Shown here one piece after another: positions 6,527 to 61,443 of a stretch of DNA of 64,000 bases (the first letter of the stretch is position 1; each line of letters opens with the position of its first letter). A model generated the notes under the pieces. It was not told the DNA's origin and searched no databases. It saw only the letters and a program-made list of their open reading frames with translations. The translations under genes were made by a program, and so were the position numbers. The stretch lies in NCBI RefSeq assembly GCF_006265095.1, contig NZ_VCNK01000014.1, forward strand, positions 62,001 through 126,000, in the 5' to 3' direction. Source of the DNA: Phaeobacter sp. B1627. GTDB lineage: Bacteria; Pseudomonadota; Alphaproteobacteria; Rhodobacterales; Rhodobacteraceae.

Positions 6527-6630
6527 GCAGGGTCTCGGGACAACGCAGGGTCTGGGGACAACAGAGGGTCGCCTTCAGGGGCGGCCCTTTTTCGTGCCCG
6601 TTCAGGCCCCACTCAGGCCCCGTTCAGGCC
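6527..6630. repeat. Two adjacent short tandem repeats after fadJ
   Basis: An 18-bp unit (gcagggtctcgggacaac) is repeated with one mismatch at 6527-6544 and 6545-6562. After the terminator hairpin, a roughly 11-bp unit built on ttcaggcccc is repeated three times at 6601-6630. The rest of the spacer up to 6751 shows no gene. Confidence 0.75.
6566..6592 (+). terminator. Rho-independent terminator of the beta-oxidation operon
   Basis: The stem is gggtcgcc (6566-6573) with ggcggccc (6580-6587), 8 bp including one G-U pair, and the loop is ttcagg. A run of five T follows at 6588-6592. It lies 43 bp after the fadJ stop. Confidence 0.8.
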
Positions 6631-6751
6631 AGCTCTCGCGCCGTGCTGGCCGGTTCAGGCGTCGTTCCGCCGCAATCCTGACCCGGGCCTGTGCGCCCCA
6701 GGTCCGCACGCGCGACCGAGGCCGGCACGCGGTCAGCTCGCTGCGGGGGCG

Positions 6752-7444
6752 TCAGTTGTAGGTGGCGTATTGCGGCTCTCCGGTGCCACCGCCGCCGGCC
6801 AGCACGCCGGGTGTCCAAAAGCTATCTTCGGTGATCATATCAATGACCAGTTCGCGCGCTTCGAGGGCAGAGAGCGGCGTGTAGAGTTTGTCGTCCTGTT
6901 CGGTGACACAGTAGTGTATCAAATCCTGCCGGGCGGGACAAAACGCCAGAATATCGGCGTCGATATAGATGACCTCATCCTGATCGAAGGTCAGAATGAT
7001 TGCCTCCATCGTGACCTGCTGCGGCGAGCGGGAGATCCCGCGATAGCCTTCCAGCGTGCAGGCCGGAACGATGGCATAGGGATCGCCCAGCTTGTCCTCG
7101 ACCAGGTCATGTTCGATCATGATGCCCTGCTCGGACTTCACCCACATCGGGTTGCGATTGCCGATGGCATCCCGGGGAATGTAGATCGGAGCCATGTCCT
7201 GGGCGCAGGCGGTATCTCCGAGCACCAGCACCTGCCGCTGAATGGTCTTCACCGCCTGCATGCCGTGATCGAAGGTCAGGACCTCATCGCCGATATTGAG
7301 CAGCTCGACCGGCCGCCAGCCAAAGGAGGTGGCAACCATGGTCCCGGTGAGAAACCCCGCATGGCCCGTGGCCACCATGGGATATTGCGTTGTAAATGCC
7401 TCTGCTATCGGGGAGGCATTTCGTTTTGCAAACCAATCCAGCAT
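6752..7444 (-). CDS. Hint (hedgehog/intein-type) domain protein, 230 aa
   Basis: The segment GFLTGTMVATSFGWRPVELL followed by NIGDEVLTFDHGMQAVKTI is the usual opening of bacterial Hint domains. The end contains an acidic SALEARELV segment. Many Roseobacter proteins of this type have the Hint module attached to RTX or adhesin domains; here it stands almost alone. The usual catalytic Cys/Ser directly after GFLTGT is replaced by Met, so self-splicing or cleavage is doubtful. There is no signal peptide. Function is unknown. Confidence 0.75.
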   Translation of the reverse strand: MLDWFAKRNASPIAEAFTTQYPMVATGHAGFLTGTMVATSFGWRPVELLNIGDEVLTFDHGMQAVKTIQRQVLVLGDTACAQDMAPIYIPRDAIGNRNPMWVKSEQGIMIEHDLVEDKLGDPYAIVPACTLEGYRGISRSPQQVTMEAIILTFDQDEVIYIDADILAFCPARQDLIHYCVTEQDDKLYTPLSALEARELVIDMITEDSFWTPGVLAGGGGTGEPQYATYN

Positions 7445-7590
7445 GTTCCTGTCCTTTCGACCTGATCTTGTGCGACGAACCTCTCAAGGGTTCAAAGCTC
7501 CAGCGACCGGTCCATGTTCACGAGTGTAGCAAACCGGTTCGGCCTGGGCGCGGTCTCTTTCGGAGCCGCCAATAGGCAAAGGGATAGGCG

Positions 7591-8241
7591 TTATTCGTTA
7601 AAAGAGTATTCAAATCGTTCGATTTCAACCGCACAGCATTTCCTCACGGCAGAGGCGGCGGCGTCATCGTAATAGGGCCGCCAGTCCCGCTTGCGCTCCG
7701 ACATATTGGTGCGCGGCAATTTCAGCCGGAACCCGAGATGGTCAAACAGCGGCTCTGCATCGGTCCCGAAATGTTCCAGCCGGATATAGAGGCTGCAATG
7801 CTCCTGGCCGTCGGATTGCCGCATGTAAGACGGCACTGGCGCATCGGAAAACGCGCGCATCACCAAAGGGTCGGTGATGAACCCCACAAAGGAGCGAGAC
7901 TGCGCCAGCGGCACCATCGGGTGGTCGAAACGCTGATGCTGCAGCCAGTGATAGAGGCTGACCGCGCGGTCCCAGGGATTGCGCACGAGGGTGAAGGCAA
8001 ACATCTGCCGCAGCTCTTCGGGTGTGGCCAGACCTTCGATGTCCGCCAGGGTGGAATGTTTCCACAACCGGCCGCGCGTCGTGACCCCCTGCAGGCGGTG
8101 GCGACGTTTTTTCGCCTTGGGCGTGTCGCCGAGCATCTCATCGCTGGCCATGGCGCGCGATTCCAATGCCAGCGCCAGCGCCGTTCCCCCGGTTTTCGGA
8201 GCATGGATAAACACGTAATTGCGGCCGCGCGACAGGATCAT
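7591..8241 (-). CDS. Sulfotransferase-family protein, 216 aa
   Basis: The N terminus NYVFIHAPKTGGTALALALE holds the P-loop-like 5'-phosphosulfate binding motif. The 3'-phosphate binding segment TLVRNPWDRAVSLYHW lies near residue 85-100. Both are typical of type II (carbohydrate) sulfotransferases, which transfer sulfate from PAPS to sugar hydroxyls, often in surface polysaccharides. The length of 216 aa is close to the short bacterial forms. It is a single gene with a 146-bp spacer to the Hint gene downstream, and is divergent from the acyl-CoA ligase. The acceptor is unknown. Confidence 0.85.
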   Translation of the reverse strand: MILSRGRNYVFIHAPKTGGTALALALESRAMASDEMLGDTPKAKKRRHRLQGVTTRGRLWKHSTLADIEGLATPEELRQMFAFTLVRNPWDRAVSLYHWLQHQRFDHPMVPLAQSRSFVGFITDPLVMRAFSDAPVPSYMRQSDGQEHCSLYIRLEHFGTDAEPLFDHLGFRLKLPRTNMSERKRDWRPYYDDAAASAVRKCCAVEIERFEYSFNE

Positions 8242-8382
8242 ATGCGCAGGCTAACCCATTCAAACCCATCCCGAAACCACCTTTGACCCGCGCCGCGAAC
8301 AGAAGAATGGCAGGGCCTTTGCGCAATCTCTTTCAATTTCCGCAAGAGCAGCGCAATATTCCATCCGACGGGGGAATTTCGG

Positions 8383-8428
8383 ACAGGTTACAGGTCCAGA
8401 CAGGGTACAGGTCCAAACAGGATACAGG
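8383..8428. repeat. 17-bp tandem repeat, about 2.7 copies
   Basis: The unit acaggttacaggtccag recurs at 8383-8399, 8400-8416 and, truncated, 8417-8428. It lies in the divergent spacer between the sulfotransferase and acyl-CoA ligase genes and ends just before the ligase ribosome binding site. Confidence 0.8.
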
Positions 8429-11310: not shown

Positions 11311-11400
11311 TGGGTTCCAACTGACAAGACCCAAACGGCCTGAACCTGGGCTGACCGAACCTCGCCTGCCCGGATCTCGCCTGCCCGGACCTCAACTGAC
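11311..11400. repeat. 15-bp degenerate tandem repeat, about six copies
   Basis: In-phase 15-mers run tgggttccaactgac (11311), aagacccaaacggcc, tgaacctgggctgac (11341), cgaacctcgcctgcc (11356), cggatctcgcctgcc (11371), cggacctcaactgac (11386). They fill much of the 241-bp spacer between convergent genes. A 15-bp period could hint at a decayed pentapeptide-repeat reading frame on the minus strand, but no convincing gene is present. Confidence 0.7.
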
Positions 11401-11432
11401 TGGCCCCCAAATTGACGGACGGCGGGCGCTCT

Positions 11433-13684: not shown

Positions 13685-13790
13685 CGGGCGCGCTCCTCTT
13701 TGGCTTTTGTGTCTCATAGTCGGCAGGCCGGGAGGCAGGCAAGGTGTTTTCCCGCTCATGCCCCCGCGCCCGTCCTGTCCACCGTCCCGG

Positions 13791-13822
13791 ATTGGCCCCT
13801 GATCGGCCCCGGAGCGGCCCTG
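13791..13822. repeat. 11-bp tandem repeat between deoB and upp
   Basis: attggcccctg, atcggccccgg and agcggccctg follow one another. The repeat lies just after the deoB stop in the 154-bp spacer before upp. Confidence 0.6.
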
Positions 13823-16392: not shown

Positions 16393-16830
16393 TCAACTCC
16401 GTTCCATATAGCCCGCATCAAAGGCACCGGGCAAAAGGTCACCGATGGTGGTGGTCTGCTCAACCCCGTCCGTGGTCGCAAGCGTGACAGAAACATCCGT
16501 TGCGCCGAACTCCTTGAGCTTCTGCCGGCAGCCGCCGCAGGGCGGCACCGGCGCGGGGCAATCCGCGATCACATAGGCCTCGGTCAGCTGTGTCTCGCCA
16601 GCCGCCACCATCGCGGCAATCGCCCCGGCCTCGGCACAGGTGCCCTCCGGGTAGGCCACATTCTCCACGTTGCAGCCCACATAGACGGTGCCAGACGCAG
16701 CCCGGATGGCGGCGCCGACCTTGAACTTCGAATAGGGCGCATGGGCGTTTTCACGCACCGCTGCGGCACGCGCACGCAATGGGTTTTCCGGCGGGGACAG
16801 TTTATCAGCAGACATGTTATCAGCAGGCAT
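16393..16830 (-). CDS. cdd: Cytidine deaminase
   Basis: This 145-aa zinc enzyme deaminates cytidine and deoxycytidine. The catalytic motif is NVENVAYPEGTCAEAGAI (zinc Cys and proton-shuttle Glu), and the other zinc ligands are in PVPPCGGCRQKL. The N terminus shows a duplicated five-residue unit, MPADN-MSADK, encoded by a 15-bp tandem repeat, so two ATG codons in frame could start translation. A ggag box favours the first. It is the first gene of cdd-deoA-deoB-upp. Confidence 0.95.
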   Translation of the reverse strand: MPADNMSADKLSPPENPLRARAAAVRENAHAPYSKFKVGAAIRAASGTVYVGCNVENVAYPEGTCAEAGAIAAMVAAGETQLTEAYVIADCPAPVPPCGGCRQKLKEFGATDVSVTLATTDGVEQTTTIGDLLPGAFDAGYMERS

Positions 16831-16867
16831 GGGCACACTCCATTTTCAGATTCTCCATTTTCAGATT
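16802..16867. repeat. Two 15-bp tandem repeats spanning the cdd start
   Basis: ttatcagcagacatg / ttatcagcaggcatg (16802-16831) duplicates the cdd start codon and its next four codons. Immediately adjacent, ctccattttcagatt occurs twice without mismatch (16838-16852, 16853-16867) in the 5' untranslated region and includes the ggag complement used by the first start. Confidence 0.85.
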
Positions 16868-16942
16868 TGAGCACCATTTGAGCGCCAGGGGGCGGAGGCG
16901 CGCCGTCGGGCTTTGAAACTTGCCATCCGTTCTTGCCGATCC

Positions 16943-17029: not shown

Positions 17030-17059
17030 CCTGTCTCACTCAAGCCTGTCTCGCTCAAG
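17030..17059. repeat. 15-bp tandem repeat running into a stop codon
   Basis: cctgtctcactcaag and cctgtctcgctcaag follow directly. The second copy contains the stop codon of the VOC-cupin gene (17055-17057, minus strand). Confidence 0.8.
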
Positions 17060-18146
17060 CCAGATCCGTGTGGAACCGTCCCGGCAGGGTCACCTCCAGC
17101 AGTTCCAGATCCTCAGATGCCCCGCAGAGACGCGTCCGCATATGAGGCGGGATCACAAAGGCGTCGCCCTGCTCCAGATCATAGGGTGTGCGCCCCTCTC
17201 CTTCCAGCGTCACGGTGCCGGCCATCACAAAGGTGAAATGAATGTCGGTGTCATGGGCGGCCCAGGGACTGCTGCCCCCGCCCGGGACCGGCCGCACCAC
17301 CTGGACCCCGGCCACGCCCCCGGTGTTCTCGGCTATGGTGGTGTCGCGACATTCAAATCCCGGCAGACGAAACGCCTGCCAGTCCGCCCCGGCCGCCTGA
17401 TTGAAGACAAACCGCTGGCCGTCCCATTCGCGATCCGGCCGCAGATGCGGCGTGGGCAGCGTCATCTCGTGGTCGATCTCTGTCACATGTTCCGCGGGAA
17501 CCCCGATTTCGATCACCTGAACATTGTCACTGGCCTCCAGCACCCGGTGGCGGATTTCAGGCGGCTGAATGAAGCAATCCCCCGGCGTCAGGCGCATCTT
17601 GTCGCCTTGATCCTCATAGACCACATCGACCCAGCCGTGGATGCAGAAAATGAGCTGAAAGCCGACCTTGTGGAAATGCACCATATCCGGCACCGGACCG
17701 CCATCGGGAATGCGGATGTGGCTGGCAATGATCGACCCACCCAGTCGGTCCGGCACCAGATCCCGGTACTGCATGCCGGCCCGGCCAATGATCCAGGGCG
17801 CCTGATCCTTGAGCCGCCGGACGACGAAACTGTGCACCGTTGGCGGCATCTCCAGCGGCGGGTTGCGCGGCTCGATCAGGATCCTGGTCCCGTTGGGCGC
17901 GGTCAGGGTCCGGGCCCCGTTCGCAAACGCCTCCGGGTCCTCGGTCAGGATGCGGATCAGCCCCGGCGCAGTCTCGGCATCGCGGTCGATCCGAACCCGG
18001 ATCCCATGGCCGGAAAACACGCCAACCCGGGGATCATCAGCCGGGTATATCATATCAAGTTTCAGACCGAGGACCTTGGTAAAAAAGGGAATATCGTCCC
18101 GGAGTTCGGAAGTGGGCAAGAGGATCTCGGCGACCGTATCGGCCAT
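17055..18146 (-). CDS. VOC (glyoxalase-like) and double-cupin fusion protein, 363 aa
   Basis: The first ~110 residues (TVAEILLPTSELRDDIPFFT, then FSGHGIRVRI) look like a VOC-fold half domain. Two cupin domains follow: HFHKVGFQLIFCIHGWVDV with LTPGDCFIQPPEIRHRV around residues 160-210, and HDTDIHFTFVMAGTVTLEG with LEQGDAFVIPPHMRT around 305-345. The combination suggests a metal-dependent isomerase, dioxygenase or sensor for a small molecule. It is transcribed divergently from malic enzyme. The fusion is clear; the substrate is not known. Confidence 0.8.
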   Translation of the reverse strand: MADTVAEILLPTSELRDDIPFFTKVLGLKLDMIYPADDPRVGVFSGHGIRVRIDRDAETAPGLIRILTEDPEAFANGARTLTAPNGTRILIEPRNPPLEMPPTVHSFVVRRLKDQAPWIIGRAGMQYRDLVPDRLGGSIIASHIRIPDGGPVPDMVHFHKVGFQLIFCIHGWVDVVYEDQGDKMRLTPGDCFIQPPEIRHRVLEASDNVQVIEIGVPAEHVTEIDHEMTLPTPHLRPDREWDGQRFVFNQAAGADWQAFRLPGFECRDTTIAENTGGVAGVQVVRPVPGGGSSPWAAHDTDIHFTFVMAGTVTLEGEGRTPYDLEQGDAFVIPPHMRTRLCGASEDLELLEVTLPGRFHTDLA

Positions 18147-18389: not shown

Positions 18390-20669
18390 ATGACCGACAA
18401 GACCTCGGAATCCCTGCGCGACGCGGCTCTGCGCTATCACGAATTTCCGCGCCCCGGAAAGTTGGAAATCCGCGCCACAAAACCTCTGGCCACCGGCATT
18501 GACCTGGCCCGGGCCTATTCGCCCGGCGTCGCCGAAGCCTGCCTCGAGATCAAGGACAACGAAGACAACGCCGCCCGCTATACAGCGCGGGGCAACCTTG
18601 TCGCAGTGGTGTCCAACGGCTCTGCCGTGCTGGGTCTCGGCAATATCGGGGCGCTGGCGTCCAAACCGGTGATGGAGGGCAAGGCGGTCCTGTTCAAGAA
18701 CTTTGCCAATATCGACTGTTTCGATATCGAGCTGAACGAAAGCGACCCGGAAAAACTGGCCGATATCGTCTGCGCGATGGAGCCGACCTTTGGCGCGATC
18801 AACCTTGAGGACATCAAGGCACCCGATTGTTTCATCGTGGAAAAACTCTGCCGCGAGCGGATGAATATTCCCGTCTTTCACGACGATCAGCACGGCACCG
18901 CCATCGTGGTTGGCGCCGCCGCCACCAATGCGCTGCATGTGGCCGGGAAACGGTTCGAGGACATCAAGATCGTTTCGACCGGGGGCGGCGCGGCCGGGAT
19001 CGCCTGTCTCAACATGCTGCTGAAACTGGGGGTGCGGCGCGAAAATGTCTGGCTCTGCGATATCCATGGGCTGGTCTATGACGGCCGCAGCGAGGACATG
19101 AACCCGCATAAGGCGGCCTTTGCGCAGGCCTCGGACAAGCGCAGCCTGGATGAGGTGATCGATGGTGCAGACCTGTTCCTCGGCCTCTCCGGTCCCAATG
19201 TGCTGACACCCGAGATGGTCGCGAAAATGGCCCGCCGCCCGATCATTTTCGCGCTGGCGAACCCGACCCCGGAAATCATGCCCGACGCGGCCCGGGCGGT
19301 CGCCCCCGATGCGATCATCGCCACCGGGCGCAGCGATTTCCCCAATCAGGTCAACAACGTCCTGTGTTTCCCCTTCATCTTTCGCGGGGCGCTGGATGTG
19401 GGTGCGACCGAGATCAACGACGCAATGGAGATCGCCTGTGTTGACGGTATCGCGGAACTGGCGCGCACCACCACCTCGGCCGAGGCGGCAGCGGCCTACA
19501 AGGGCGAACAGCTCACCTTTGGCGCCGACTACCTGATCCCGAAGCCGTTTGATCCGCGTCTGGTGGCGGTGGTGTCCTCGGCCGTGGCGGGGGCGGCGAT
19601 GTCGAGCGGGGTTGCCAAGCGCCCCATCGACGATCTCGGGGCCTATCGGTCGAAGCTGAACCAGAGCGTGTTCAAATCCGCCCTGCTGATGAAGCCGGTG
19701 TTTGAATCCGCCCGCGCCGCCTCGCGCCGCATTGTCTTTGCGGAAGGCGAAGACGAGCGGGTGTTGCGGGCCGCCCAGGAGATCCTGCGCGAAACGACCG
19801 AAACACCGATCCTGATCGGTCGGCCGGAAGTGATCGAAAGCCGCGCCGACCGCCTTGGCCTGTCGATCCGGCCGGGCAAGGATGTGGAGATCGTGAACCC
19901 GGAAAACGATCCCCGCTACCGTGACTATTGGTCCAGCTACCATCAGATCATGGAACGTCAGGGCGTCACCCCGGATCTGGCCAAGGCCATCCTGCGTACC
20001 AATACCACCGCCATCGGCGCCATCATGGTCCATCGCGGCGATGCCGACAGCCTGATCTGCGGCACCTTCGGAGAATACCGCTGGCATCTGAACTATGTGA
20101 GCCAGATCCTCGGCGGTGGCAAATATACCCCCCACGGAGCGTTGTCGCTGATGATCCTCGAAGACGGGCCGCTGTTCATTGCCGACACCCAGGTGCGGAT
20201 TGAACCCACCCCGGAGGAAATCGCACAGACCGTGCTCGGCGCGGCCCGCCATGTGCGCCGCTTTGGCCTCAAGCCGCAGATCGCGCTGTGTTCTCAAAGC
20301 CAGTTCGGCAATATCCAATGCGACACCGGCGCCCGGCTGCGGGCGGCCATGAAACTCCTCGATGAGGCGCCCCGCGATTTTGTCTACGAAGGCGAGATGA
20401 ATATCGATGCGGCGCTGGATGCGGATCTGCGCGAGCGGATTTTCCCGAACTCGCGCCTGGAGGGCGCGGCCAATGTGCTGATCTTTGCCCATGCAGACGC
20501 CGCATCAGGGGTCCGCAACATCCTGAAAATGCGCTCGGGCGGTCTTGAGGTCGGTCCGATCCTGATGGGCATGGGCAACCGCGCCCATATCGTATCGCCC
20601 TCGATCACGGCGCGCGGATTGCTGAACATGGCGGCCATCGCGGGCACGCCTGTCGGTCTCTACGGCTGA
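18390..20669 (+). CDS. maeB: NADP-dependent malic enzyme with phosphotransacetylase-like C-terminal domain
   Basis: This 759-aa MaeB-type protein decarboxylates malate to pyruvate with NAD(P)H. The malic domain contains YSPGVAEAC near residue 45, [12 protein letters not shown] near 165, and the nucleotide-binding segment [13 protein letters not shown]. From about residue 430 onward a PTA-like domain ([20 protein letters not shown]) is present; in this family it is usually regulatory rather than an active acetyltransferase. The start follows a ccatgaggagcg ribosome binding site; the long upstream in-frame extension is antisense to the divergent gene and was rejected. Confidence 0.96.
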
Positions 20670-21039
20670 GCAACGGGGCTGGCGCCCCTGACCGGCCCCG
20701 GCTCCGGTCAGGGGACGGTCAGCGCCCGCCGCCAGACAGACCCGCGACCCCGACATTCCCAAGAAAGCAGCGGCCACTGAGTCGGTCCGCCGTACCCCAG
20801 TTTGCAAGTCGGATTGCAGCCCGGATTGCAGCCCGGACCGCTTTGCAACTTTGCAGAGATTGCGGGTCAACTTAGCGAAACCTGCTTCTGCCAGAGAGTT
20901 TGCAAAAATTTGCAATCTGCTCTGGCAAAATTCGCCTCAAAACAACGCCAATGTGACGCAGGGGCGCTCCGCCTGCTTGCCCCGGTGAAATGCTTGCGCC
21001 TACCCTCGCCGCCAAGAGGAGACAGAGAGGAGGATCGCG
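20670..21039. other. 370-bp spacer between maeB and prpE
   Basis: No gene is seen. The left part is GC-rich. The right part holds a 12-bp tandem repeat (ggattgcagccc at 20811-20822 and 20823-20834), several TTTGCAA boxes, and the prpE ribosome binding region (gaggagacagagaggagg). Confidence 0.7.
20842..20915 (+). promoter_or_regulatory. TTTGCAA boxes upstream of prpE (ScfR/PccR-like sites)
   Basis: tttgcaa-c-tttgcag lies at 20842-20856 and tttgcaa-aaa-tttgcaa at 20899-20915; a further single box is at 20801. Direct repeats of TTTGCAAA are the binding pattern I recall for short-chain fatty acyl-CoA regulators (RamB in corynebacteria, PccR in Rhodobacter sphaeroides). Their location before propionyl-CoA synthetase makes such control plausible. 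Confidence 0.6.
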
Positions 21040-22929
21040 ATGACATATTCTGAGGTCTACGCACAGTGGCAGGCAGACCCGGAGGGGTTCTGGATGGACG
21101 CTGCGGGCGCCATCAGCTGGGACCGAGCACCGACACGGGCGCTGAGCGATCTCGGCGAGGGCCTGTATGAATGGTTCGCCGACGCCCGCGTCAACACCTG
21201 CTACAATGCCGTTGACCGCCACGTCGAGGCCGGCCGTGGCGAGCAGGCCGCGATCATCTACGACAGCCCGGTCACCCACACCAAACGCGAGATTTCCTTT
21301 GTCGAGCTGCGCAACCGGGTCGCGACTCTGGCCGGGGCGCTCAGGGCCAAAGGGGTGGAAAAGGGCGATCGGGTGATCATCTACATGCCGATGGTCCCCG
21401 AAGCGCTGGAGGCGATGCTGGCCTGTGCGCGGATCGGCGCGGTGCATTCGGTGGTCTTTGGCGGCTTTGCGGCCAGCGAACTCGCCGTGCGGATCGACGA
21501 CGCCACCCCCAAGGCGATCATCGCCGCGTCCTGCGGGATCGAACCGGGGCGGATCGTGCATTACAAACCGCTGCTGGACGGCGCCATCGAACAGGCCAGC
21601 CACAAGCCCGATTTCTGCGTCATCCTGCAGCGCGAACAGGAAGTTGCGGAGCTGATCGAGGGGCGCGATGTCAACTGGCACGGCTTTCAATACGGGGTGG
21701 AGCCTGCGGACTGCCTGCCGGTCGAGGGCAATCACCCTGCCTATATCCTCTATACCTCCGGCACCACCGGTCAGCCGAAGGGGGTGATCCGCCACACCGC
21801 AGGCCAGCTGGTGGCGCTGAACTGGTCGATGAAAAACATATATAATGTCGACCCCGGCGATGTGTTCTGGGCTGCCTCGGATGTGGGCTGGGTCGTGGGG
21901 CATAGCTATATTGCCTACGGGCCGCTGATCCATGGCAACACCACCATCGTGTTTGAGGGAAAACCTGTCGGCACGCCGGATGCCGGCACGTTCTGGCGGG
22001 TCATGGCCGAGCACAAGGTCAAAACCTTCTTTACCGCGCCCACGGCCTTTCGCGCGGTCAAGCGGGAGGACCCCGAGGGCGATTTCGTCAAAAAATACGA
22101 TCTGTCCCACCTCGGCCAGGTCTTTCTCGCCGGTGAACGCGCCGATCCCGACACGATTGTCTGGGCGCAGGAGCAGCTGGGCGTTCCGGTGATCGACCAT
22201 TGGTGGCAGACGGAAACCGGCTGGTCGATCGCGGCAAATCCGCTGGGGATCGAGGCGCTGCCGGTCAAACTTGGCTCTCCGGCGGTGCCGATGCCGGGCT
22301 ATGAGGTGCATATCCTCGACGAGGGCGGGCATCCTGTCAGCGCCGGAGAACTGGGCGCGATCGCGATCAAACTGCCGCTGCCTCCGGGCACGCTGCCGAC
22401 GCTGTGGCAGGCGGGCGATCGGTTCAGGACGAGCTATCTCACTGCTTTTCCAGGCTATTATGAAACCGGCGACGCCGGGATGATGGACGAGGACGGCTAT
22501 CTCTATATCATGGCGCGCACCGACGATGTGATCAATGTGGCGGGTCACCGCCTGTCCACCGGCGCCATGGAAGAGGTGCTGTCGGGTCACCCGGATGTTG
22601 CGGAATGCGCCGTCATCGGGGTCGCGGACAGCCTCAAGGGGCAGATGCCGCTGGGCTTTCTCTGTCTGAACGCAGGCTGCAACCGCCCCCATAGCGAGAT
22701 TGTCACCGAGGTCGTGAAACGGGTGCGGGAGAAGATCGGGCCCGTCGCCGCGTTCAAGCTCGCCTGCGTTGTGGACCGGCTGCCCAAGACCCGCTCGGGC
22801 AAGATCCTGCGCGCCACCATGGTGTCCATTGCGGATGGCAGCAGCTGGAAGATGCCCGCGACCATCGACGATCCGGCCATTCTTGATGAGATCAAGACCG
22901 CGCTGCAGGAATTGGGCTACGCCTCCTGA
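21040..22929 (+). CDS. prpE: Propionyl-CoA synthetase
   Basis: This 629-aa AMP-forming acyl-CoA synthetase starts MTYSEVYAQWQADPEGFWMD, the form I associate with alphaproteobacterial PrpE. The P-loop YTSGTTGQPKGV lies near residue 245, WWQTETGWSIAANPLG near 387, YYETGDAGMMDEDGYLYIM near 480, and the acetylatable lysine motif LPKTRSGKILRATM near 586. It activates propionate (and perhaps acrylate-derived or other short acids) for carboxylation. The ATG follows gagaggagg. A hairpin terminator follows. Confidence 0.93.
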   Translation: MTYSEVYAQWQADPEGFWMDAAGAISWDRAPTRALSDLGEGLYEWFADARVNTCYNAVDRHVEAGRGEQAAIIYDSPVTHTKREISFVELRNRVATLAGALRAKGVEKGDRVIIYMPMVPEALEAMLACARIGAVHSVVFGGFAASELAVRIDDATPKAIIAASCGIEPGRIVHYKPLLDGAIEQASHKPDFCVILQREQEVAELIEGRDVNWHGFQYGVEPADCLPVEGNHPAYILYTSGTTGQPKGVIRHTAGQLVALNWSMKNIYNVDPGDVFWAASDVGWVVGHSYIAYGPLIHGNTTIVFEGKPVGTPDAGTFWRVMAEHKVKTFFTAPTAFRAVKREDPEGDFVKKYDLSHLGQVFLAGERADPDTIVWAQEQLGVPVIDHWWQTETGWSIAANPLGIEALPVKLGSPAVPMPGYEVHILDEGGHPVSAGELGAIAIKLPLPPGTLPTLWQAGDRFRTSYLTAFPGYYETGDAGMMDEDGYLYIMARTDDVINVAGHRLSTGAMEEVLSGHPDVAECAVIGVADSLKGQMPLGFLCLNAGCNRPHSEIVTEVVKRVREKIGPVAAFKLACVVDRLPKTRSGKILRATMVSIADGSSWKMPATIDDPAILDEIKTALQELGYAS

Positions 22930-22999: not shown

Positions 23000-23116
23000 C
23001 TGATCCGGACTGTTGTCGGATCCTGTCTGTTTTTCGTATCTGCGTTTCGAGCCTGTGTCGTGAGCTTGCGTACTGCGCCTGTGCTCTGGTCCGGCCTGTG
23101 GATCCCGGCGCACAGG

Positions 23117-23167
23117 GGCTCTCAGCGCACAGTGGCTATCAGGACACTGCGGCTCTCAGGATACTGC
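23117..23167. repeat. 17-bp tandem repeat, three copies, reaching the csbD-like stop
   Basis: ggctctcagcgcacagt, ggctatcaggacactgc and ggctctcaggatactgc run at 23117-23133, 23134-23150 and 23151-23167. A fourth partial unit (ggcgatcaaa) contains the stop codon of the CsbD-like gene. A looser version of the pattern extends upstream to about 23040. Confidence 0.8.
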
Positions 23168-23172
23168 GGCGA

Positions 23173-25723: not shown

Positions 25724-25757
25724 CCGCCTTCCGTCCCGAGCCCGCCTCCCTCGGTTT

Positions 25758-25812
25758 CATCTTTTTGAAAATACCTCCGCCGGAGGCATCGCCCCGGGCC
25801 AGAGGTCCGGGG
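25758..25812 (-). repeat. REP-like element, second copy
   Basis: Read on the minus strand it runs gatgcctccggcggaggtat, then tttcaaaaagatgaaacc, with a preceding hairpin (arms gccccgg and ccggggc). The palindrome and tail match the element at 1735 closely. It lies between the convergent ends of the amidase and NAD kinase genes, sense with respect to NAD kinase. Confidence 0.7.
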
Positions 25813-28559: not shown

Positions 28560-28647
28560 TGGCTCGGGTCTCCGCAGATGGTGGCGGCAATGACCCTACG
28601 CGCCGCCGCCCAAAAGCTCAATGTCGGCCCGGCCACAGAACCGGGCG

Positions 28648-28685
28648 GATCGGGGCAGATCAGGGCAGATCGGATCGGGACAGAT
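28648..28685. repeat. 10-bp degenerate tandem repeat (gatcggggca)
   Basis: gatcggggca, gatcagggca, gatcggatcgggaca and gatcac follow one another in the spacer before the esterase gene. A similar word (agatcggggcagatcagg) appears at 57060 before rsmA. Confidence 0.6.
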
Positions 28686-28738
28686 CACCCCGCCATATGG
28701 GGGCTGACAGTCGCTTGAGTTGCGGCTATCACGGCGAC

Positions 28739-33267: not shown

Positions 33268-33670
33268 CAGGCTCCGGCAAGAGAAATGCCCTCTCAGACC
33301 GGCAGAATCGATTTTCCCGGATCGCCACCCGCCCTCTTTTGCTTGGCGCGCTTATTGCAGTCGTATGTCAGCGCCGCCCTCCCGATCCCCCCGACGCCCC
33401 TGATGCCCCCTGACGGCGCGTCAGCCGAGGACCTCGACCGCTCCCCTGGCCGCGCTGCTGGCCAGGGAGGACATGGCACTGAATGATCTGGCTTGCGGCT
33501 CAGCGTGTCGACAAACTGGGCGGGCGACCTTCAGCCGCAAAGACCTACAGCCGCGAAGGTGTGAGCGGCAGTTGGCAACGAATGTTGTGGAGTTGCTGCA
33601 GAGCCTATCGAAAACGACAAAGGCCGCTCTGATGAGCGGCCTTTATGCCATTGATCCCTTTGAGAGATTC
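33268..33670. other. 403-bp spacer between the sugar cluster and tRNA-Asn
   Basis: No credible gene. A short Pro/Arg-rich frame at 33286-33486 and another overlapping the tRNA look like chance. The last 50 bp contain the tRNA terminator hairpin. No copy of the tRNA 3' end was found that would mark an integration site. Confidence 0.6.
33619..33644 (-). terminator. Terminator hairpin after tRNA-Asn
   Basis: The stem is aaaggccgct (33619-33628) with agcggccttt (33635-33644), 10 bp perfect, loop ctgatg. On the minus strand it is followed by a T-rich stretch (gtcgttttc). It lies 27 bp beyond the 3' end of the tRNA. Confidence 0.85.
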
Positions 33671-36560: not shown

Positions 36561-36660
36561 ATTGGCACATTGATGCCGTCAGGGAGCTGTCACATCATCA
36601 AGGCCCCCTGATGAGCCAATATAGGAGAGTACACCAATGGGGCGACGCCAAAGCGCGGCC

Positions 36661-39147: not shown

Positions 39148-39190
39148 GGGCCCAGGTACTCCTCAATCGTAGCCACCGAAGCGGCAAAGT

Positions 39191-39664: not shown

Positions 39665-39753
39665 AAGGCATCTCCTAAATCGGTCAGGCCCCGTGATGAG
39701 GCGTCGCCCGATAGTGGCATGGCGCAGCAAAAACGGAATGAGCGCCTGCGTAT

Positions 39754-39766
39754 AGTCTGCTAGACT
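39754..39766. promoter_or_regulatory. Inverted repeat in the divergent kinase/regulator spacer
   Basis: agtct-gct-agact lies between the Mo-fold/kinase operon and the LuxR-type regulator gene, close to a TATAAG hexamer at 39771. A LuxR-type protein could bind here to control both directions. Confidence 0.35.
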
Positions 39767-39892
39767 TTCGTATAAGAAGGGTAAACCACATCGCTCAAAG
39801 GTGAACTGTTTTGTGCCCCTCATGTGCACGGGGTGCTCTAGCTTTGATATCAGCATGGCACTTTGGCCGGCCGCGTCAGGGAGGAGCACCAC

Positions 39893-43682: not shown

Positions 43683-43760
43683 GCGCGAGACTTACGGCGC
43701 GAGACCCACGGCGCGATGGCTCCGCCGGGCCACAGTGGGCAACACAAGGGGCAACACAGG
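43683..43760. repeat. Two tandem repeats next to the DUF2235 stop
   Basis: A 14-bp unit (gcgcgagacttacg) is repeated three times at 43683-43724. A 12-bp unit (gggcaacacaag) is repeated at 43737-43748 and 43749-43760, ending 2 bp before the stop codon of the DUF2235 gene (minus strand). Confidence 0.75.
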
Positions 43761-43762
43761 GG

Positions 43763-45352
43763 TCAACTCTGACGCTCGATCCGGACTGACAGGCTGCCTG
43801 CGTTATTGCCGTACATGTGCCAGGCGTCATTGGCAAAGAGGTAGAGATAGCCACTTTGTTCCGCTGTGAAGGTCACGTCCTTGCCAAGGCGGTGGATCTC
43901 GTGCTCTTCGACGCCTTCGGCAAATTCGCTGGCCCCCTGCCCGTTCGCGATCGCCCCGATCAGGGCAAACCAGGGCGCATCGGGCACCCGGCGCGTGAAG
44001 GGCACATCCGCCTTTGCCAAACGTTTCACCGAGCGCAACAGGCCGCGCAGGGCTTCTGGCACCGCAGCAAGCCCATAGGCGATCTTGCCCAGATGGGCAC
44101 CCGATTTGGCACCATCCGCCGTGGCGGGCACAGACGCATCCAGCCACTCCCCCTTGGCGATCACCCGGTAGGTTGCACCCTCTTCGATATAGATGCCGGT
44201 GCTGTTCCATCTCGGCCGCGCGCTGGCCTGCGTCTGACAGCTCTCTCCCGGAGCCAGACGCAGGCTCGGCCAGTAGCTGCGCTCTCCGGGCGGGGGGGTC
44301 CGATGGCGGCTGAGGACAGAAGTATCAAAGCAGGTCCGTCCGTCCCAGCCGCCCGCACAGGACGCGCCGCCTGTCACTTCGGGCACCGCGCGGGGCCGGG
44401 TCGGCCGGTAGCGGAACAGACCAAGGAAAGAATTATGCCGCATCGCAAAGGCATCCGGGTTCAACTGACCGGGTGCGACGGGGCGCAGGCCCAACCCGTT
44501 TTTGCGCGCGTCCTGCAGCATCCAGTCGAGAGTGAGATCGCCGAGACCGCAGTCTGAGTAGCTTCCTCCCACGTCGCCGTGCACGCCGGGAAACCACCGT
44601 TGCTGCACATCCTGACCGGGGGCCCATTTGGTCCAGAGGGTGGGCGTGAAGTCCTGTCGGCGTTCATCCATGGCAAGCGCCTGACGCGCGCATACCACAT
44701 TGCCCCCAAGCTCCGTGTCGCGGAACCCGTGTTTGCGCGGGTCCCCGAGCACCAGCCGCAACAGCCCCTTGTCGTCGGGAATGCCCAGCGCGCCCACCGT
44801 GTCCCAGACGCCGATGAACCGGAACCCGAGCGTCTCGCGGTCGTGAAATGCGGTGCGCGTCAGCGGGCGCTCTCGCAGCAGGGCCGTCTGCAGAACCGTT
44901 TTCTCCCCCCGCACCTTGTTGGACTGATAGCGTTCCATCAGTCGCTTCACGATCTGCCAGGGGTCCTCATAGGGGGAGAGATGGTCCGGTCTGAGATCCG
45001 CAAGCCCCACATTGGACACCATCCCGGCGAGGCTGCGCACGGTATAGGCGCCCCGGCTGAACCCGAAGAGAAAGATCTCATCCCCCGGGGCGTAGGTCTC
45101 GGCCAGGAACTTATAGGCGCTCATGATATCATCTTCGAGCCGCAGCCCGATGGCACCGCCGAGGACGCGGCGGAAAAAACCACCCGAGGTGCCAACGCCG
45201 GTGCGGTAATAGACGATCTGCTCGGTTCCGGTGCTGTCTTGTGTATCCACCAGCGAATGCAGCTTTGCCACATTGGTGGGCGTCGGCGTGCCGTTGTCAT
45301 GCTGATCCGCCGTGTTCCACGTTCCGTCGCAACAAATGACCAACCTGCGCAT
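43763..45352 (-). CDS. DUF2235 hydrolase with PA-IL-like C-terminal domain, 529 aa
   Basis: The N terminus RRLVICCDGTWNTADQ and the nucleophile elbow FLFGFSRGAYTVRSLAG (Ser near residue 99) define the DUF2235 alpha/beta hydrolase family, which includes the Tle1 phospholipase effectors. The last ~120 residues (TYRVIAKGEWLDA, PWFALIGAI, GYLYLFANDAWHMYGNNAG) resemble the galactose-binding PA-I lectin fold. No signal peptide and no VgrG/Hcp neighbours are seen, so secretion is unproven. The start was chosen by the aagggggaa box. Confidence 0.85.
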   Translation of the reverse strand: MRRLVICCDGTWNTADQHDNGTPTPTNVAKLHSLVDTQDSTGTEQIVYYRTGVGTSGGFFRRVLGGAIGLRLEDDIMSAYKFLAETYAPGDEIFLFGFSRGAYTVRSLAGMVSNVGLADLRPDHLSPYEDPWQIVKRLMERYQSNKVRGEKTVLQTALLRERPLTRTAFHDRETLGFRFIGVWDTVGALGIPDDKGLLRLVLGDPRKHGFRDTELGGNVVCARQALAMDERRQDFTPTLWTKWAPGQDVQQRWFPGVHGDVGGSYSDCGLGDLTLDWMLQDARKNGLGLRPVAPGQLNPDAFAMRHNSFLGLFRYRPTRPRAVPEVTGGASCAGGWDGRTCFDTSVLSRHRTPPPGERSYWPSLRLAPGESCQTQASARPRWNSTGIYIEEGATYRVIAKGEWLDASVPATADGAKSGAHLGKIAYGLAAVPEALRGLLRSVKRLAKADVPFTRRVPDAPWFALIGAIANGQGASEFAEGVEEHEIHRLGKDVTFTAEQSGYLYLFANDAWHMYGNNAGSLSVRIERQS

Positions 45353-45387
45353 ATCGAAATTCCCCCTTGATAAAAAAAACATTTGCA

Positions 45388-45447
45388 CCGGGGGGCAGTC
45401 CCCCCGGAGCGCTTAAAACCGGGGGCAGCCCCCCGGACCGCTTAAAT
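45388..45447. repeat. Tandem GC hairpins, 31-bp period
   Basis: ccggggggcagtccccccgg plus agcgcttaaaa (45388-45417) is followed by ccgggggcagccccccgg plus accgcttaaat (45419-45447). Each unit folds into a strong hairpin. The tandem sits in the divergent spacer between the DUF2235 and ABC-F genes, where it could affect either 5' leader. Confidence 0.75.
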
Positions 45448-48858: not shown

Positions 48859-49344
48859 CTAGGCAGAGGCCGCCTCGCTCTCGGCCTTCTTTTCCCATCG
48901 TCCCGACTCTTCGGACCAGTATTGCGCCGCGCAGCCCGCCCCCGTCAGCGCCTTCCATTGGCCACGCGCCTGCTGAACCGCCTGCGGGTCAGTACCGTCA
49001 AACAGGATGCAAACCCGCTCCAGCGTGGTGACGTCCTCCGGGGTCACGGCCGCTCCGTCCACGCTCATCACACAGGCCGGCTGATTGGGGGCCTGCGCCG
49101 ATGTGGTCAGCAGGATCGGCTGAAGCGCGTCATGCGCGCCCCCCGCGAGCCCATGCGGCAAAAAGCTGGTCTCCCCCCCGGACCAGAGCACATCATCCAG
49201 CCACGCCAATCGGTCCGGGTCAGCGCCGCGCACCGCGATACGCCACCCGGCGCCGCGCGCCTTTTCCAGCAGCACAGGCAATGTCTCCTGCAACGGCTTT
49301 CGCGTCAGGTGATAGAAATAGGCCGCCCCCATCTGATTGCTCAT
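48859..49344 (-). CDS. holC: DNA polymerase III subunit chi
   Basis: The 161-aa protein starts MSNQMGAAYFYHLTRKPLQE. The family pattern is visible in LPVLLEKARGAGWRIAVRG, PDRLAWLDDVLW and SFLPHGLAGG. Chi binds psi and SSB in the clamp-loader complex. The start overlaps the pepA stop (ATGA), a common arrangement of pepA-holC. Confidence 0.95.
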   Translation of the reverse strand: MSNQMGAAYFYHLTRKPLQETLPVLLEKARGAGWRIAVRGADPDRLAWLDDVLWSGGETSFLPHGLAGGAHDALQPILLTTSAQAPNQPACVMSVDGAAVTPEDVTTLERVCILFDGTDPQAVQQARGQWKALTGAGCAAQYWSEESGRWEKKAESEAASA

Positions 49345-50813
49345 TCGTCCTCGAACTGATCTCTCACCAGACGGTTCAGGGACATCACCCCCCAGCCCGT
49401 GGCCCCTTTGGGCGCGTAGGTGGTGTTGGATTTGACCGAGGCCACCCCCGCGATATCGAGGTGGATCCACGGGGTTTCATCCTTGATGAACCGCTTCAGG
49501 AACTGTGCCGCGGTGATGGCTCCGCCGGGACGGCCCCCGACATTCTTCATATCCGCGATATTCGACTTCAGCTGGTCATCATACCCCTGGCCCAGCGGCA
49601 AGCGCCAAGCCCCTTCATCCTCGGCCCCGGCCGCCTTCAGGAAAGCCTGGCACAGCTTGTCGTCATTGGAGAAAACGCCCGCGTTTTCATGTCCGAGACC
49701 GACAATCACGGCGCCGGTCAGCGTTGCCAGATCAATCACCCCTGCCGGTTTGAACCGCTCCTGCGTGTACCACAGCACGTCACACAGAACGAGCCGCCCC
49801 TCGGCGTCGGTATTGATGATCTCGACCGTGTCCCCCTTCATCGATGTCACCACATCGCCGGGGCGAATTGCTGTGCCCGAGGGCATGTTCTCGACCAGCC
49901 CCACAAGGCCGACCACATTGGCCTTGGCCTTGCGCAGGGCGAGCGCGCGCATAGTGCCCGCCACCACGCCTGCGCCGCCCATGTCCATGGTCATGTCTTC
50001 CATGCCCCCGGCCGGCTTCAACGAGATCCCGCCGGTGTCAAACACCACGCCCTTGCCCACAAGCGCCAGCGGCGCCGCCCCAGCCTCGCCTCCGTTCCAG
50101 GACATCACCACCACTTTCGACGGGCTGGCAGAGCCTTGCCCGACGCAGAGCAGAGTGCGCATGCCCAGCGACTCCAGATCGGCCTCTTCCAGCACTTCCA
50201 CCTCGAGCCCGAGGCTCTTCATTTCCGTCAGGCGATCGGCAAACTCAGTGGTGGTCAATACGTTCGCCGGCTCGCTGACCAGATCGCGGGTCATGTGCAC
50301 ACCTTCGGCAACCGCCATCAGCGGCTGATAGGCGAGTTCGATTTCCTCGGGGCGGTTGTGGCCGATCACCACCTCGCCGCGCGCATCGCTGCTGGCGGTT
50401 TTATGGGCGTCGAAACTATAGCCCCGCAAGGCCAGCCCAAAGGCGAGATCCGCCGCACGGGCCATATTTCCCGCTTTGACCATGAGCGCCGAGGTGCCCC
50501 GCGCCTCAGCCAGTTTGGCCCCGGCCTTGCGCGCCTCGACCGGCGTCATCCGGCGCGACAGGATCACAACATGCAGCGCCTCTGCCGCCAGACCCGCAGG
50601 CCATGCGAGGGTAATGACATGCCCCGGTTTGGCCTTGGCAAAGCTCTCGGAGGCGATCAAGCGGGCCACGGCCCCCTTGGTCAGCCGGTTGGCGCTGCGA
50701 GCGGCCTGATCCATTGTGCCCTCGGGCGTGACCACAATCGCAACATGGCCTTCGATGTCAGCCAGAGATTTGGGATCGTAGCTGGAAAAACGGATCGGTG
50801 TGAGCGCGCTCAT
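49341..50813 (-). CDS. pepA: Leucyl aminopeptidase
   Basis: This 490-aa M17 metallopeptidase releases N-terminal amino acids. The metal-binding motif GVVFDTGGISLKPAGGMEDM lies near residue 260 and the signature NTDAEGRLVL near 340. The upstream Met was rejected since caggagaccc lies just before the chosen ATG. Two Zn/Mn ions are expected. The gene is coupled to holC. Confidence 0.97.
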   Translation of the reverse strand: MSALTPIRFSSYDPKSLADIEGHVAIVVTPEGTMDQAARSANRLTKGAVARLIASESFAKAKPGHVITLAWPAGLAAEALHVVILSRRMTPVEARKAGAKLAEARGTSALMVKAGNMARAADLAFGLALRGYSFDAHKTASSDARGEVVIGHNRPEEIELAYQPLMAVAEGVHMTRDLVSEPANVLTTTEFADRLTEMKSLGLEVEVLEEADLESLGMRTLLCVGQGSASPSKVVVMSWNGGEAGAAPLALVGKGVVFDTGGISLKPAGGMEDMTMDMGGAGVVAGTMRALALRKAKANVVGLVGLVENMPSGTAIRPGDVVTSMKGDTVEIINTDAEGRLVLCDVLWYTQERFKPAGVIDLATLTGAVIVGLGHENAGVFSNDDKLCQAFLKAAGAEDEGAWRLPLGQGYDDQLKSNIADMKNVGGRPGGAITAAQFLKRFIKDETPWIHLDIAGVASVKSNTTYAPKGATGWGVMSLNRLVRDQFEDE

Positions 50814-51454
50814 TCGGGTCTCCTGTGGATCATCAGTTTCGGTGGTTCCGGACATGTCCGACCACTATTGCCCCCTAGGAGTAGCCGCTGCATCCAGCGA
50901 ATACCAGTAGCGGAAGGTCGGGGGCTTCACTCCACGCAGAGCGCGTCGCGGACAGGGCCTGGCACGCATAGGTTTGATCCTGCCCCGCCCTGCGTGCCGA
51001 CGCGCTTGCCAGCGGCCCTCCGGCCCCCCTCCCAGATCACTTCAAAGCAGCCTCCCTGCCCGATGCGCAACCTGACGCGCAGCCTGTGACCCATCTCGCA
51101 TCTGCCGGAGAAGAATGCAGTTTTCCCCCCTGCACAATTCCTCTAAGGTCCCGGCAACAATCCGAGCGCAAGATCATGGGGGGATCGGGTGTCACATAAC
51201 GACGGATACTTGTTGCCGCTCAGTCTGGCATACTGTCTGGCGCACAGTCTCGCGCACAGCCTGCCGTTCAGGCGCGCATACTCTCTGCCGCACTGGCTGG
51301 CATACAGTCTGGCACACAGTCTCTCGCTCTGCCACTCACTCTGCGGCCACGGGATCTCGGCCGCCTCCCGTACGGCTTCCCGCTCCGACGGTGAGGCCGG
51401 GCCCGGCGCGGCCCGGGCAGAGGTGCAGAACCTTCCGGGGAGAGGGCCTCTGCG
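50814..51454. other. 641-bp spacer between pepA and lptG, no gene
   Basis: All open frames here are low-complexity (His/Arg/Ser-rich) and stem from the 12-bp repeat at 51222-51341. A partner permease gene lptF, which I would expect just upstream of lptG in this group, is not found; the gap is too short for it (~1.1 kb). Confidence 0.7.
51222..51341. repeat. 12-bp degenerate tandem repeat, ten consecutive copies
   Basis: In-phase 12-mers run agtctggcatac (51222), tgtctggcgcac, agtctcgcgcac, agcctgccgttc, aggcgcgcatac, tctctgccgcac, tggctggcatac (51294), agtctggcacac (51306), agtctctcgctc, tgccactcactc (51330). The first, seventh and eighth units are the closest to one another. The array lies 114 bp before lptG. 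Confidence 0.9.
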
Positions 51455-58028: not shown

Positions 58029-58084
58029 CAGATACGCATAAGACAGATACGCAAAAACCCCCGTGCGGCCGCATCGGGGGTTTT
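58029..58084. terminator. 15-bp repeat and bidirectional terminator after rsmA
   Basis: A 15-bp unit (cagatacgcataaga) is repeated at 58029-58043 and partly from 58044. The terminator stem aaaacccccg (58054-58063) with cgggggtttt (58075-58084) follows, with an 11-base loop. It serves rsmA and the convergent DUF4167 gene. Confidence 0.85.
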
Positions 58085-59862: not shown

Positions 59863-60911
59863 TGCCCCATCTCCGCCAGCATCTGCGCCTGGTGATCCGA
59901 CGTCAGCGCATCGATGATTTCGTCAAGGTCGCCCCCCATGATCTGTTCAAGCTTGTAGAGCGTCAGGTTGATGCGATGATCCGACATCCGCCCCTGCGGA
60001 AAATTATAGGTACGGATCCGTTCGGACCGGTCGCCGGAGCCGACCTGGCTTGCGCGATCTGCGGAGCGTTCGGTATCGATCCGCTGCCGCTCCAGATCAT
60101 AGAGGCGGGTCTTCATCACCTGCATCGCGATCTCACGGTTGCGGTGCTGGGATTTTTCCGAGCTGGTGACCATCAGGCCGGTGGGCAAATGGGTGATGCG
60201 TACGGCCGAGTCGGTGGTATTGACGTGCTGCCCGCCTGCGCCGGACGCCCGCATTGTATCGATCCTCAGGTCATTCGGGTCGATCTTGATGTCCACGTCT
60301 TCCGCTTCCGGCAGAACAGCGACCGTCGCCGCCGAGGTGTGGATACGCCCCCCGCTTTCGGTCACCGGCACACGCTGAACACGGTGCACGCCGCTTTCGT
60401 ATTTCAACCGCGCAAAGACACCCTCGCCATTGATCCGTGCGACCAGCTCCTTGAGCCCGCCGAGTTCGGTGGACTGCTCTTCGATCACCTCGACCTTCCA
60501 GCCGCGGGCCTCGGCATAGCGGCTGTACATCCGGTACAGGTCACCGGCAAATAGCGCCGCCTCATCGCCACCGGTGCCCGGCCGGATCTCCAGAATCGCC
60601 GCCCGGCTGTCGGCCTCGTCCTTCGGCAGCAGGGCCAGCTGCAGCCGGTGTTCGGCCTCGGGCAAAGCCGCCCTGAGCGTCGGGATTTCCTCCAGCGCCA
60701 GCGCCTTCATGTCCGGATCGTCCAACATCTCTTCGGCATCGGCAAGATCGCTCAGAAGCTGCCGATAGGCACCGATCTGTTCCGCCACCGGGCGCAGATC
60801 GGAGTATTCCTTCGCCAGACGCGCGATATCGCCCCCAGGCCCATCGGCCATCGCCGCCTCGAGATACTGATAGCGTTGCAGGATCTGTTCCAGCCGGTCT
60901 TCGGGGATCAT
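59859..60911 (-). CDS. prfA: Peptide chain release factor 1
   Basis: The 350-aa factor reads UAA and UAG. The stop-codon tripeptide region [20 protein letters not shown] lies near residue 180 and the peptidyl-hydrolysis motif is [20 protein letters not shown] near 225. The length fits RF1. It is the first gene of prfA-prmC and is divergent from a small secreted protein. Confidence 0.97.
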
Positions 60912-60985
60912 CGTCGGATCTGTCTCACTGTTTCGGGCGCCGTCAGGGCTTTGGCGCGGGGCTTCACCTGTGATAGGCTAGTGCC

Positions 60986-61270
60986 ATGAAACATGCCAGT
61001 GTTCTTGTCTGTCTCGCCCTTCTGGTCGTCACGGCGGCCCGAGCAGATGTGACCGGCCCCGGCGGCAAGACCGTTGATTGCTATTGCACCGACAAACAAG
61101 GGGGCCGTATCGAATTGGGCGAAACCATCTGCCTGCAGGTCGACGGGCGCATGTTCATGGCCCAATGCCAGATGTCGCTCAATGTGCCGATGTGGCGCGA
61201 GGTACAGGAGGGCTGCCTGTCCGCGCGCGCCCACCAAACACCGGCGCCAGACAGCCTGCCGCAGCTGTAG
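60986..61270 (+). CDS. Small secreted hypothetical protein, 94 aa
   Basis: A signal peptide (MKHASVLVCLALLVVTAARA) precedes a mature part of ~74 residues with four cysteines (DCYCTDK, ETICLQV, AQCQM) plus EGCLSAR near the end. The odd number suggests two disulfides and one free or paired cysteine. The pattern looks conserved and periplasmic. No function is recognised. Confidence 0.7.
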   Translation: MKHASVLVCLALLVVTAARADVTGPGGKTVDCYCTDKQGGRIELGETICLQVDGRMFMAQCQMSLNVPMWREVQEGCLSARAHQTPAPDSLPQL

Positions 61271-61393
61271 CGCGCTCTTGGCCGGGCGAAGCCCGGCGCC
61301 CGGCCCAACAGGCGGGAGATTTCGCACGAAATCGAAGCGTCGGCGGGAGAGCCACCCCTGACCGGAGCGCACCCGCACTAACCTGCGCCCCCG

Positions 61394-61443
61394 CCCGACC
61401 CGCCGCAAGGCGCCATGGCGCGACCCGCCACAAGGCGGGATGG
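61394..61443. repeat. About 25-bp tandem repeat between convergent genes
   Basis: Two copies of a cgacccgcc(g/a)caaggcg-type unit, each ending in atgg, at 61394-61418 and 61419-61443. They form hairpins with flanking GC words in the 230-bp spacer after the small secreted gene. Confidence 0.6.

Follow-up and report, generated by a model that had tools for sequence, protein, structure and literature searches.

Locus-private minisatellites turn over in the intergenic spacers of two sister species of Rhodobacteraceae

The intergenic spacers of Phaeobacter sp. B1627 are crowded with short tandem arrays, each built from a unit of its own, and within the sampled genus this excess is shared only with the closest relative. 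We describe the arrays from a 64,000-nucleotide stretch (positions 62,001 to 126,000 of contig NZ_VCNK01000014.1; hereafter the window), which is part of a 220-kb contig of the 4.35-Mb, 134-contig B1627 genome (G000). The closest genome within the genus, taken here as the sister, is the metagenome-assembled genome (MAG) MedPE-SWcel (G010), which shares 94% identity with B1627 in a window protein of the thymidine phosphorylase family, compared with 81% each for Epibacterium sp. Ofav1-8 and Tritonibacter horizontis. The arrays are private and young, and we consider it fairly probable, at roughly 70%, that they are the products of a mutational tandem-duplication process restricted to this two-species clade and not of a dedicated element.

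The original prediction held that many spacers of the window contain tandem repeats with private units, and scoring of the window bears this out. Arrays were scored by lag-self-match (match +1, mismatch -1.5, periods 8-40, threshold 12) in spacers delimited by a home-made gene caller, with spacers shorter than 30 bp or longer than 1500 bp and pieces below 5 kb excluded. Gene calls were replaced by hand at four places in the window, where Pfam supports three of the added frames and gives no support to that at 49101-51089, while the calls of all other stretches stand uncorrected. The 38 spacers of the window (9,587 bp) hold 17 arrays, against a mean of 0.09 and a maximum of 2 in 100 dinucleotide-preserving shuffles per spacer, and Tandem Repeats Finder (TRF) returned 56 rows for the window at a score of at least 30. 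Twelve of the 14 predicted loci are among the 17 (6527, 8383, 11311, 16838, 17030, 20811, 23117, 28648, 43683, 43737, 51222 and 61394), although the array predicted at 11311 is real but misplaced, its true span being 11342-11410. The remaining two loci are also repeats: 13791 (11 bp) is absent from the 17 because the gene caller had placed it inside a gene, and it scores 14.0 once the stretch upstream of the uracil phosphoribosyltransferase domain is counted as spacer (8 of 500 shuffles reach 10), and 58029, the weakest, scores 10.5, under the threshold, with 0 of 500 shuffles of its spacer reaching 10. Five further arrays emerged at 6602 (11 bp), 16796 (15 bp), 33526 (16 bp), 45400 (29 bp) and 51297, the last extending the 51222 array, and the TRF output adds an 11-bp repeat at 16865. 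With head-to-tail units in the range of roughly 10-100 bp, these arrays are minisatellites; a search of the window for known RNA families returned one tRNA only.

The excess extends well beyond the window. The survey covered 746 kb of B1627 (about 17% of the genome), 400 kb of the sister and smaller amounts from 15 congeners, 17 genomes of the genus in all with G014 left out; two congener stretches (L198 and L117) overlap by about 1 kb, and the spacer assignments of stretch L279, which has no gene calls, are invalid. B1627 has 95 arrays in 99.8 kb of spacer (0.95 per kb; 1.35 expected) and the sister 81 in 55.9 kb (1.45 per kb; 0.9 expected), whereas the 15 congeners pooled have 11 in 135.4 kb (0.08 per kb), a 12-18-fold excess in called spacers. 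Shuffled sequence thus fails to reproduce the observed density in the window, in B1627 or in the sister. Because gene calls could bias the spacer figures, the counts were repeated without them for periods of 10-18 bp, giving 125 arrays in 746 kb of B1627, 93 in 400 kb of the sister and 22 in 783 kb of congeners; other named loci, most of them from Rhodobacteraceae, gave 36 in 906 kb. The excess over congeners is then 6.0-fold for B1627 and 8.3-fold for the sister, and 5.1-fold and 6.8-fold, respectively, when only periods not divisible by three are considered. The suggestion that a genome-wide tandem-duplication process is at work is therefore supported, as the effect recurs outside the window in the roughly 17% of the genome sampled, unevenly between contigs.

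Among the 17 sampled genomes of the genus the excess is confined to the two-species clade. Outside the genus, Phaeobacter sp. CECT 5382 (L005, L260-L264) has an intermediate density, with 10 arrays in 18.4 kb of spacer and a ratio of 2.9 without gene calls (p 0.053); one spacer array was counted in a Seohaeicola and none in either a Ruegeria or a Shimia. The high-array state may have evolved more than once, with Phaeobacter sp. CECT 5382 as a possible independent instance.

Evidence for the youth of the arrays comes from comparison of the sisters, in which one genome per species was used and the turnover seen is therefore between species. In 34 orthologous spacers, in one of which the sister lacks any sequence between the flanks, we located 16 arrays of B1627 and 21 of the sister, and none of these 37 is tandem in both. 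Seven of the spacers have arrays in both sisters, each with its own (near 6527, 11342, 16838, 20802, 23100, 28643 and 61385). At 16838..16867, an exact 15-bp duplication, and at 16865..16887, an 11-bp duplication with one substitution, the sister retains the single copy that is the source of each. Conservation of the units across species, as expected of ordinary regulatory sites, is thus not observed. A match of at least 90% to another array was obtained for only 4 of 95 units in B1627, compared with 2 in the shuffled control.

This turnover does not seem to be matched by a general acceleration of sequence change. B1627 and its sister differ by 0.32 substitutions per four-fold site (43 genes), and a control pair of congeners (G005-G016), at 0.39, has no array in 13 aligned spacers, three of which were counted twice so that 10 are distinct. 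The median difference in spacer length is 2 bp for the control pair versus 20 bp for the sisters. Point substitution does not look faster in the clade because its distances to congeners are similar to those among the congeners themselves.

The arrays also show a preference in unit size. Units of 10-18 bp account for 76 of 95 arrays in B1627 and 69 of 81 in the sister, with 45 and 48, respectively, at 12-15 bp; the frequent recurrence of 15-bp units noted earlier therefore stands as part of a spread and not as a distinct size. The median is 2.8 copies per array in B1627 and 3.0 in the sister, the largest observed number being 11, and arrays with at least about four copies number 31, 70 and 2.5 per Mb in B1627, the sister and the congeners. 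The size preference is also evident in exact adjacent duplications, for which the control was five shuffles: for units of 5-9 bp the excess over shuffles per kb is 0.33 in B1627, 0.41 in the sister and 0.41 in congeners, and for units of 10-18 bp it is 0.25, 0.75 and 0.01. Plain slippage should favour short units, and for this reason the excess is not simply more slippage. Outside the arrays, weak similarity at lags of 10-18 bp stands at 5.6 times the shuffle level in B1627, 4.3 times in the sister and 1.7 times in congeners, a pattern expected if old duplications have accumulated and decayed in layers along the spacers. Apart from minor signs to the contrary at 8-9 bp, the excess involves only units of about 10 bp or longer.

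The arrays are also biased in position and, within genes, in reading frame. Density per kb is highest in convergent spacers, lower in codirectional and lowest in divergent ones, both in B1627 (1.70, 1.06 and 0.42) and in the sister (3.29, 1.40 and 0.63). Comparison of intergenic with coding DNA found arrays per kb about 7 times rarer in coding DNA in B1627 and about 16 times rarer in the sister. Coding arrays have a period divisible by three in 75 of 84 cases in B1627 and 29 of 30 in the sister, whereas among spacer arrays the corresponding figures are 38 of 95 and 37 of 81. Coding units of 12, 15 or 18 bp reach 57 and 56 per Mb in B1627 and the sister versus 16 in congeners, and the process therefore seems to reach genes too. 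The best reading of these patterns is that selection filters the products of duplication.

We propose that on the branch leading to B1627 and its sister the rate at which some 10 nt or more are recopied next to themselves rose several-fold or more. Under neutrality, a rough calculation from the exact duplications would put the yield at about one 10-18-bp duplication per 50-150 substitutions in B1627, compared with one per few thousand in a congener such as Tritonibacter mobilis. Such duplications would then grow by further unit-length slips and decay through substitution and deletion, so that patches of spacer would be rewritten while flanking genes stay about 90% identical. The products would persist where they are least harmful, mostly in convergent and least in divergent spacers and, within genes, mainly in frame, and the arrays themselves would be neutral. 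The duplication step probably belongs to DNA replication or repair, as backward strand slippage or as the keeping of a 10-18-nt loop or flap, and its cause would be an inherited change in these functions that altered the handling of strands displaced or looped out over about 10 nt or longer. Only tentatively, and at somewhat less than even odds, do we put forward a sharper version in which a heritable and nearly silent mutator has become fixed in the clade, leaving substitution and 5-9-bp duplication at the congeners' level and raising the rate of duplications of about 10 bp or longer by an order of magnitude. If true, a size gate of this kind would mean that bacteria have a safeguard against long loops or flaps, those of around a helical turn or as long as an Okazaki primer, and that this clade has lost or altered it; the sisters and their congeners would then constitute a natural experiment for identifying it.

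Several observations weigh against this account. The congeners too are above chance, with their 11 spacer arrays against 1.15 expected, and this background is uneven because a single genome (G009) contributes 7 of the 11 arrays that congeners have at periods other than multiples of three. Some arrays of the sister are related to one another, since 11 of its 81 units have a match of at least 90% elsewhere among the arrays, where the shuffled control gives 0-3. The size boundary is blurred at its lower edge: weak similarity at lags of 8-9 bp stands at 4.7 times the shuffle level in B1627, 2.8 times in the sister and 2.5 times in congeners (15 cases in B1627 and 7 in congeners), and genes contain 8, 4 and 2 arrays of 9-bp units in 636, 340 and 624 kb, respectively. 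Array density differs between stretches of B1627 (chi-square p 0.0002; p 0.16 in the sister) and tracks GC content, with rank correlations of 0.56 and 0.64 in B1627 and the sister. Density is lower on the B1627 contigs C35, C44, C50 and C60, and in plasmid searches of such contigs a stretch of C60 (L213) matches a plasmid replication initiator gene; recent acquisition may be one reading of the low density, and composition or replicon another. Finally, no causal gene has emerged among those examined (RecJ, ExoVII, the PolA 5'-3' exonuclease domain, MutS and RecG), all of which are present.

From what is known in model organisms, a lesion in PolA, RecJ or exonuclease VII (ExoVII) would be expected. 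RecJ was found in all 18 genomes searched, ExoVII in 17 of them, the exception being G014, which is 67% complete, and the PolA 5'-3' exonuclease domain in each of 10 genomes, and the clade's genes have open frames; a mutator deficient in exonuclease or flap processing through loss of any of the three was thus rejected, as was loss of MutS or RecG, whose genes are present. Missense changes, regulation, other genes or acquired genes are possible causes. PolA, compared over 672 residues and not the whole protein, carries 12 substitutions specific to B1627 and its sister, with 13 specific to the control pair G011 and G013 and at most 2 for other pairs; it is neither cleared nor accused because the clade's long stem may explain the 12 changes. 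Three further candidates were set aside. The SbcD model does not set the clade apart, since G015 alone among 18 genomes passes its cut-off; an extra Y-family polymerase is no clade difference, with two matches in 23 of 24 genomes and one in G006; and a fusion of xseA in a long open frame of both sisters was dismissed because the additional sequence is found upstream of where conserved XseA begins and does not resemble XseA.

In both sisters, the units are richer in CAG/CTG and in GC than the remaining spacer DNA. Bacterial Okazaki primers are about as long as the units, but the idea of a link to these primers is unsupported, as the CAG/CTG enrichment does not favour either strand when set against GC skew (29 versus 24 arrays in B1627 and 29 versus 32 in the sister).

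Among the alternatives, selective maintenance of the arrays for a function that depends on unit size, such as nucleoid binding or the production of small RNAs, is unlikely. The concentration of units at 10-18 bp while their sequence varies would fit such a function, as would the shared enrichment in CAG/CTG and GC, and a role of this kind has been proposed for bacterial repeats of constant size and variable sequence (PMC8161180). However, the sisters have no array in common in tandem form, divergent spacers are poorest in arrays, the congeners do without most of them, and within genes the period follows the reading frame. Equally improbable is ordinary slippage at an ordinary rate, with the clade only tolerating or retaining more of its products, for example under weaker selection. 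The weak lag similarity above chance in congeners and the intermediate density of Phaeobacter sp. CECT 5382 speak for it, but the clade does not exceed its congeners in exact duplications of 5-9 bp, B1627, the sister and the congeners have similar median spacer lengths (177, 182 and 179.5 bp, respectively), and the distances of the clade to its congeners resemble those among congeners.

Origin through end-joining of staggered breaks, or through the spread of small mobile or dispersed elements, is judged very unlikely. In 20 of 55 clean exact duplications the match extends past the junction by no more than 1 bp, as blunt joining would give, and in 35 by at least 2 bp, which may represent microhomology or the start of a third copy; yet Ku was found in 0 of 10 genomes. 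Dispersed elements, such as repetitive extragenic palindromic (REP) sequences, CRISPR and the like, are at odds with the scarcity of matches between B1627 units and with the presence of the doubled 16838 unit only once in the genome. Chance or an artefact of gene calling or assembly is scarcely credible: the gene caller did misplace some starts (as at 13791), hand corrections were confined to the window and the sister is a MAG, but shuffles fall far below the observed density, congeners processed with the identical gene caller have few arrays, a 6-8-fold excess persists without gene calls, two assemblies agree, and substitutions set the copies of an array apart.

The individual arrays of the window vary in unit, copy number and setting. 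An 18-bp unit in 2.5 copies (6526..6570) begins 2 bp past the upstream stop codon, in a spacer for which the sister has other arrays, and an 11-bp unit is present in 2.6 copies at 6602..6630; a protein with a Hint_2 domain is encoded nearby (6752-7444, minus strand). A 17-bp unit in 2.8 copies (8382..8428) directly precedes the ribosome-binding region of an AMP-binding enzyme gene, and the sister has a different short repeat in the same place. The 15-bp unit at 11342..11410 reaches 4.6 copies, and the 11-bp unit upstream of the uracil phosphoribosyltransferase domain (13786..13820, about 3 copies) is missing in the sister. Next to the two duplications with a single-copy counterpart in the sister lies a 15-bp unit in 2.4 copies (16796..16831), and another 15-bp unit in 2.1 copies (17030..17061) occupies a spacer in which the sister has a different 10-bp array. 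A 12-bp unit in 3 copies (20802..20837) lies in the spacer at 20650-21040, which measures 370 bp here and 1,310 bp in the sister (L002), where the extra kilobase or so seems to contain small reading frames. The 17-bp unit at 23100..23170 has 4.2 copies, and the corresponding sister spacer holds an unrelated 10-bp array of 7.8 copies.

In the remainder of the window, the array at 28643..28687 has nested periods of 10, 15 and 25 bp, and a 16-bp unit in 2.1 copies (33526..33558) scores at the threshold. The latter lies within a lower-GC stretch (33270-40100) that adjoins tRNA-Asn, carries chemoreceptor and hybrid histidine kinase genes, and has three spacers that did not map to the compared sister stretches. 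A 14-bp unit in 2.4 copies (43683..43716) is followed by a 12-bp unit in about 2.6 copies (43731..43767) that extends to the end of the neighbouring gene; 43763-45388 (minus strand) encodes a protein with a Tle1-like phospholipase domain of the type VI secretion system. A 29-bp unit in 1.6 copies (45400..45446) is absent from the sister. The degenerate 12/24-bp array at 51214..51344, with about 8.5 copies of 12 bp according to TRF, lies upstream of an LptF/LptG-family gene and is mostly lacking in the sister, although the sister flank is nearly identical. The weak 15-bp repeat occupies 58029..58055, and a 25-bp unit is repeated about 2.5 times at 61385..61447.

Two repeats of other kinds were also recorded. 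A 35-bp dispersed element with the palindrome CTCCGGCGGAG occurs in the window at 25756-25790 (minus strand) and 1734-1768 (plus strand), where none is expected; its 17-bp core is present in 13 of 279 loci and a 32-bp part has many matches in congeners, and it may be a shared terminator-like repeat. In a Lentisphaerae MAG (L076), related 14-bp arrays lie at 11394 and 11909, on opposite strands and about 0.5 kb apart.

To our knowledge, the birth of bacterial minisatellites is poorly understood, as is what keeps them rare in most bacteria. Here, array density in two sisters is roughly ten times that in the 15 congeners sampled, with no accompanying rise in 5-9-bp duplications or in the pace of substitution; an inherited difference between close relatives should explain the excess, and the question is therefore open to comparative genetics. 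The case also shows spacers being rewritten while gene sequence and order hold, and cautions against taking such repeats for conserved regulatory sites.

In yeast and Escherichia coli, mutants in flap endonuclease or single-stranded DNA exonucleases accumulate short tandem duplications, often with a few bp of junction homology. The duplications described here are likewise short and tandem but occur in a natural lineage in which the corresponding genes are present. A literature search returned no report on this clade's repeats, including in the available portions of PMC2884548, PMC6749651 and PMC8161180, to which the following comparisons are limited. The bacterial repeats of constant size and variable sequence described by Subirana and Messeguer (PMC8161180) have units of 20-21 or 52 nt in at least four repeats. 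They resemble the clade's arrays in that many occur per genome with a similar unit size and a different sequence at each locus, and in that density varies strongly between related species. In contrast, the clade's arrays share neither those unit sizes nor that copy number, their units being spread over 10-18 bp, not fixed, and present mostly in 2-4 copies; moreover, turnover between sister species is demonstrated here and the congeners are nearly free of arrays. Satellite-rich prokaryotes such as Methanosarcina also combine many short satellites, about 40% of them with unique sequences, with a density that varies between species of one genus (PMC6749651). That survey required at least four regular repeats and used another program, so its highest bacterial value of 23 per Mb is only roughly comparable with the 31 for B1627 and 70 for the sister on our own measure. 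The satellites of Burkholderia and Chloroflexus likewise have short non-coding units, but they derive from 6-8-nt microsatellites and form families across loci (PMC6749651), whereas B1627 units rarely match between loci and few units, by eye, look like multiples of a 3-8-nt repeat. The general kind of repeat is thus known, and what sets this case apart is the unit size, the contrast with congeners, the turnover between sisters and the size preference.

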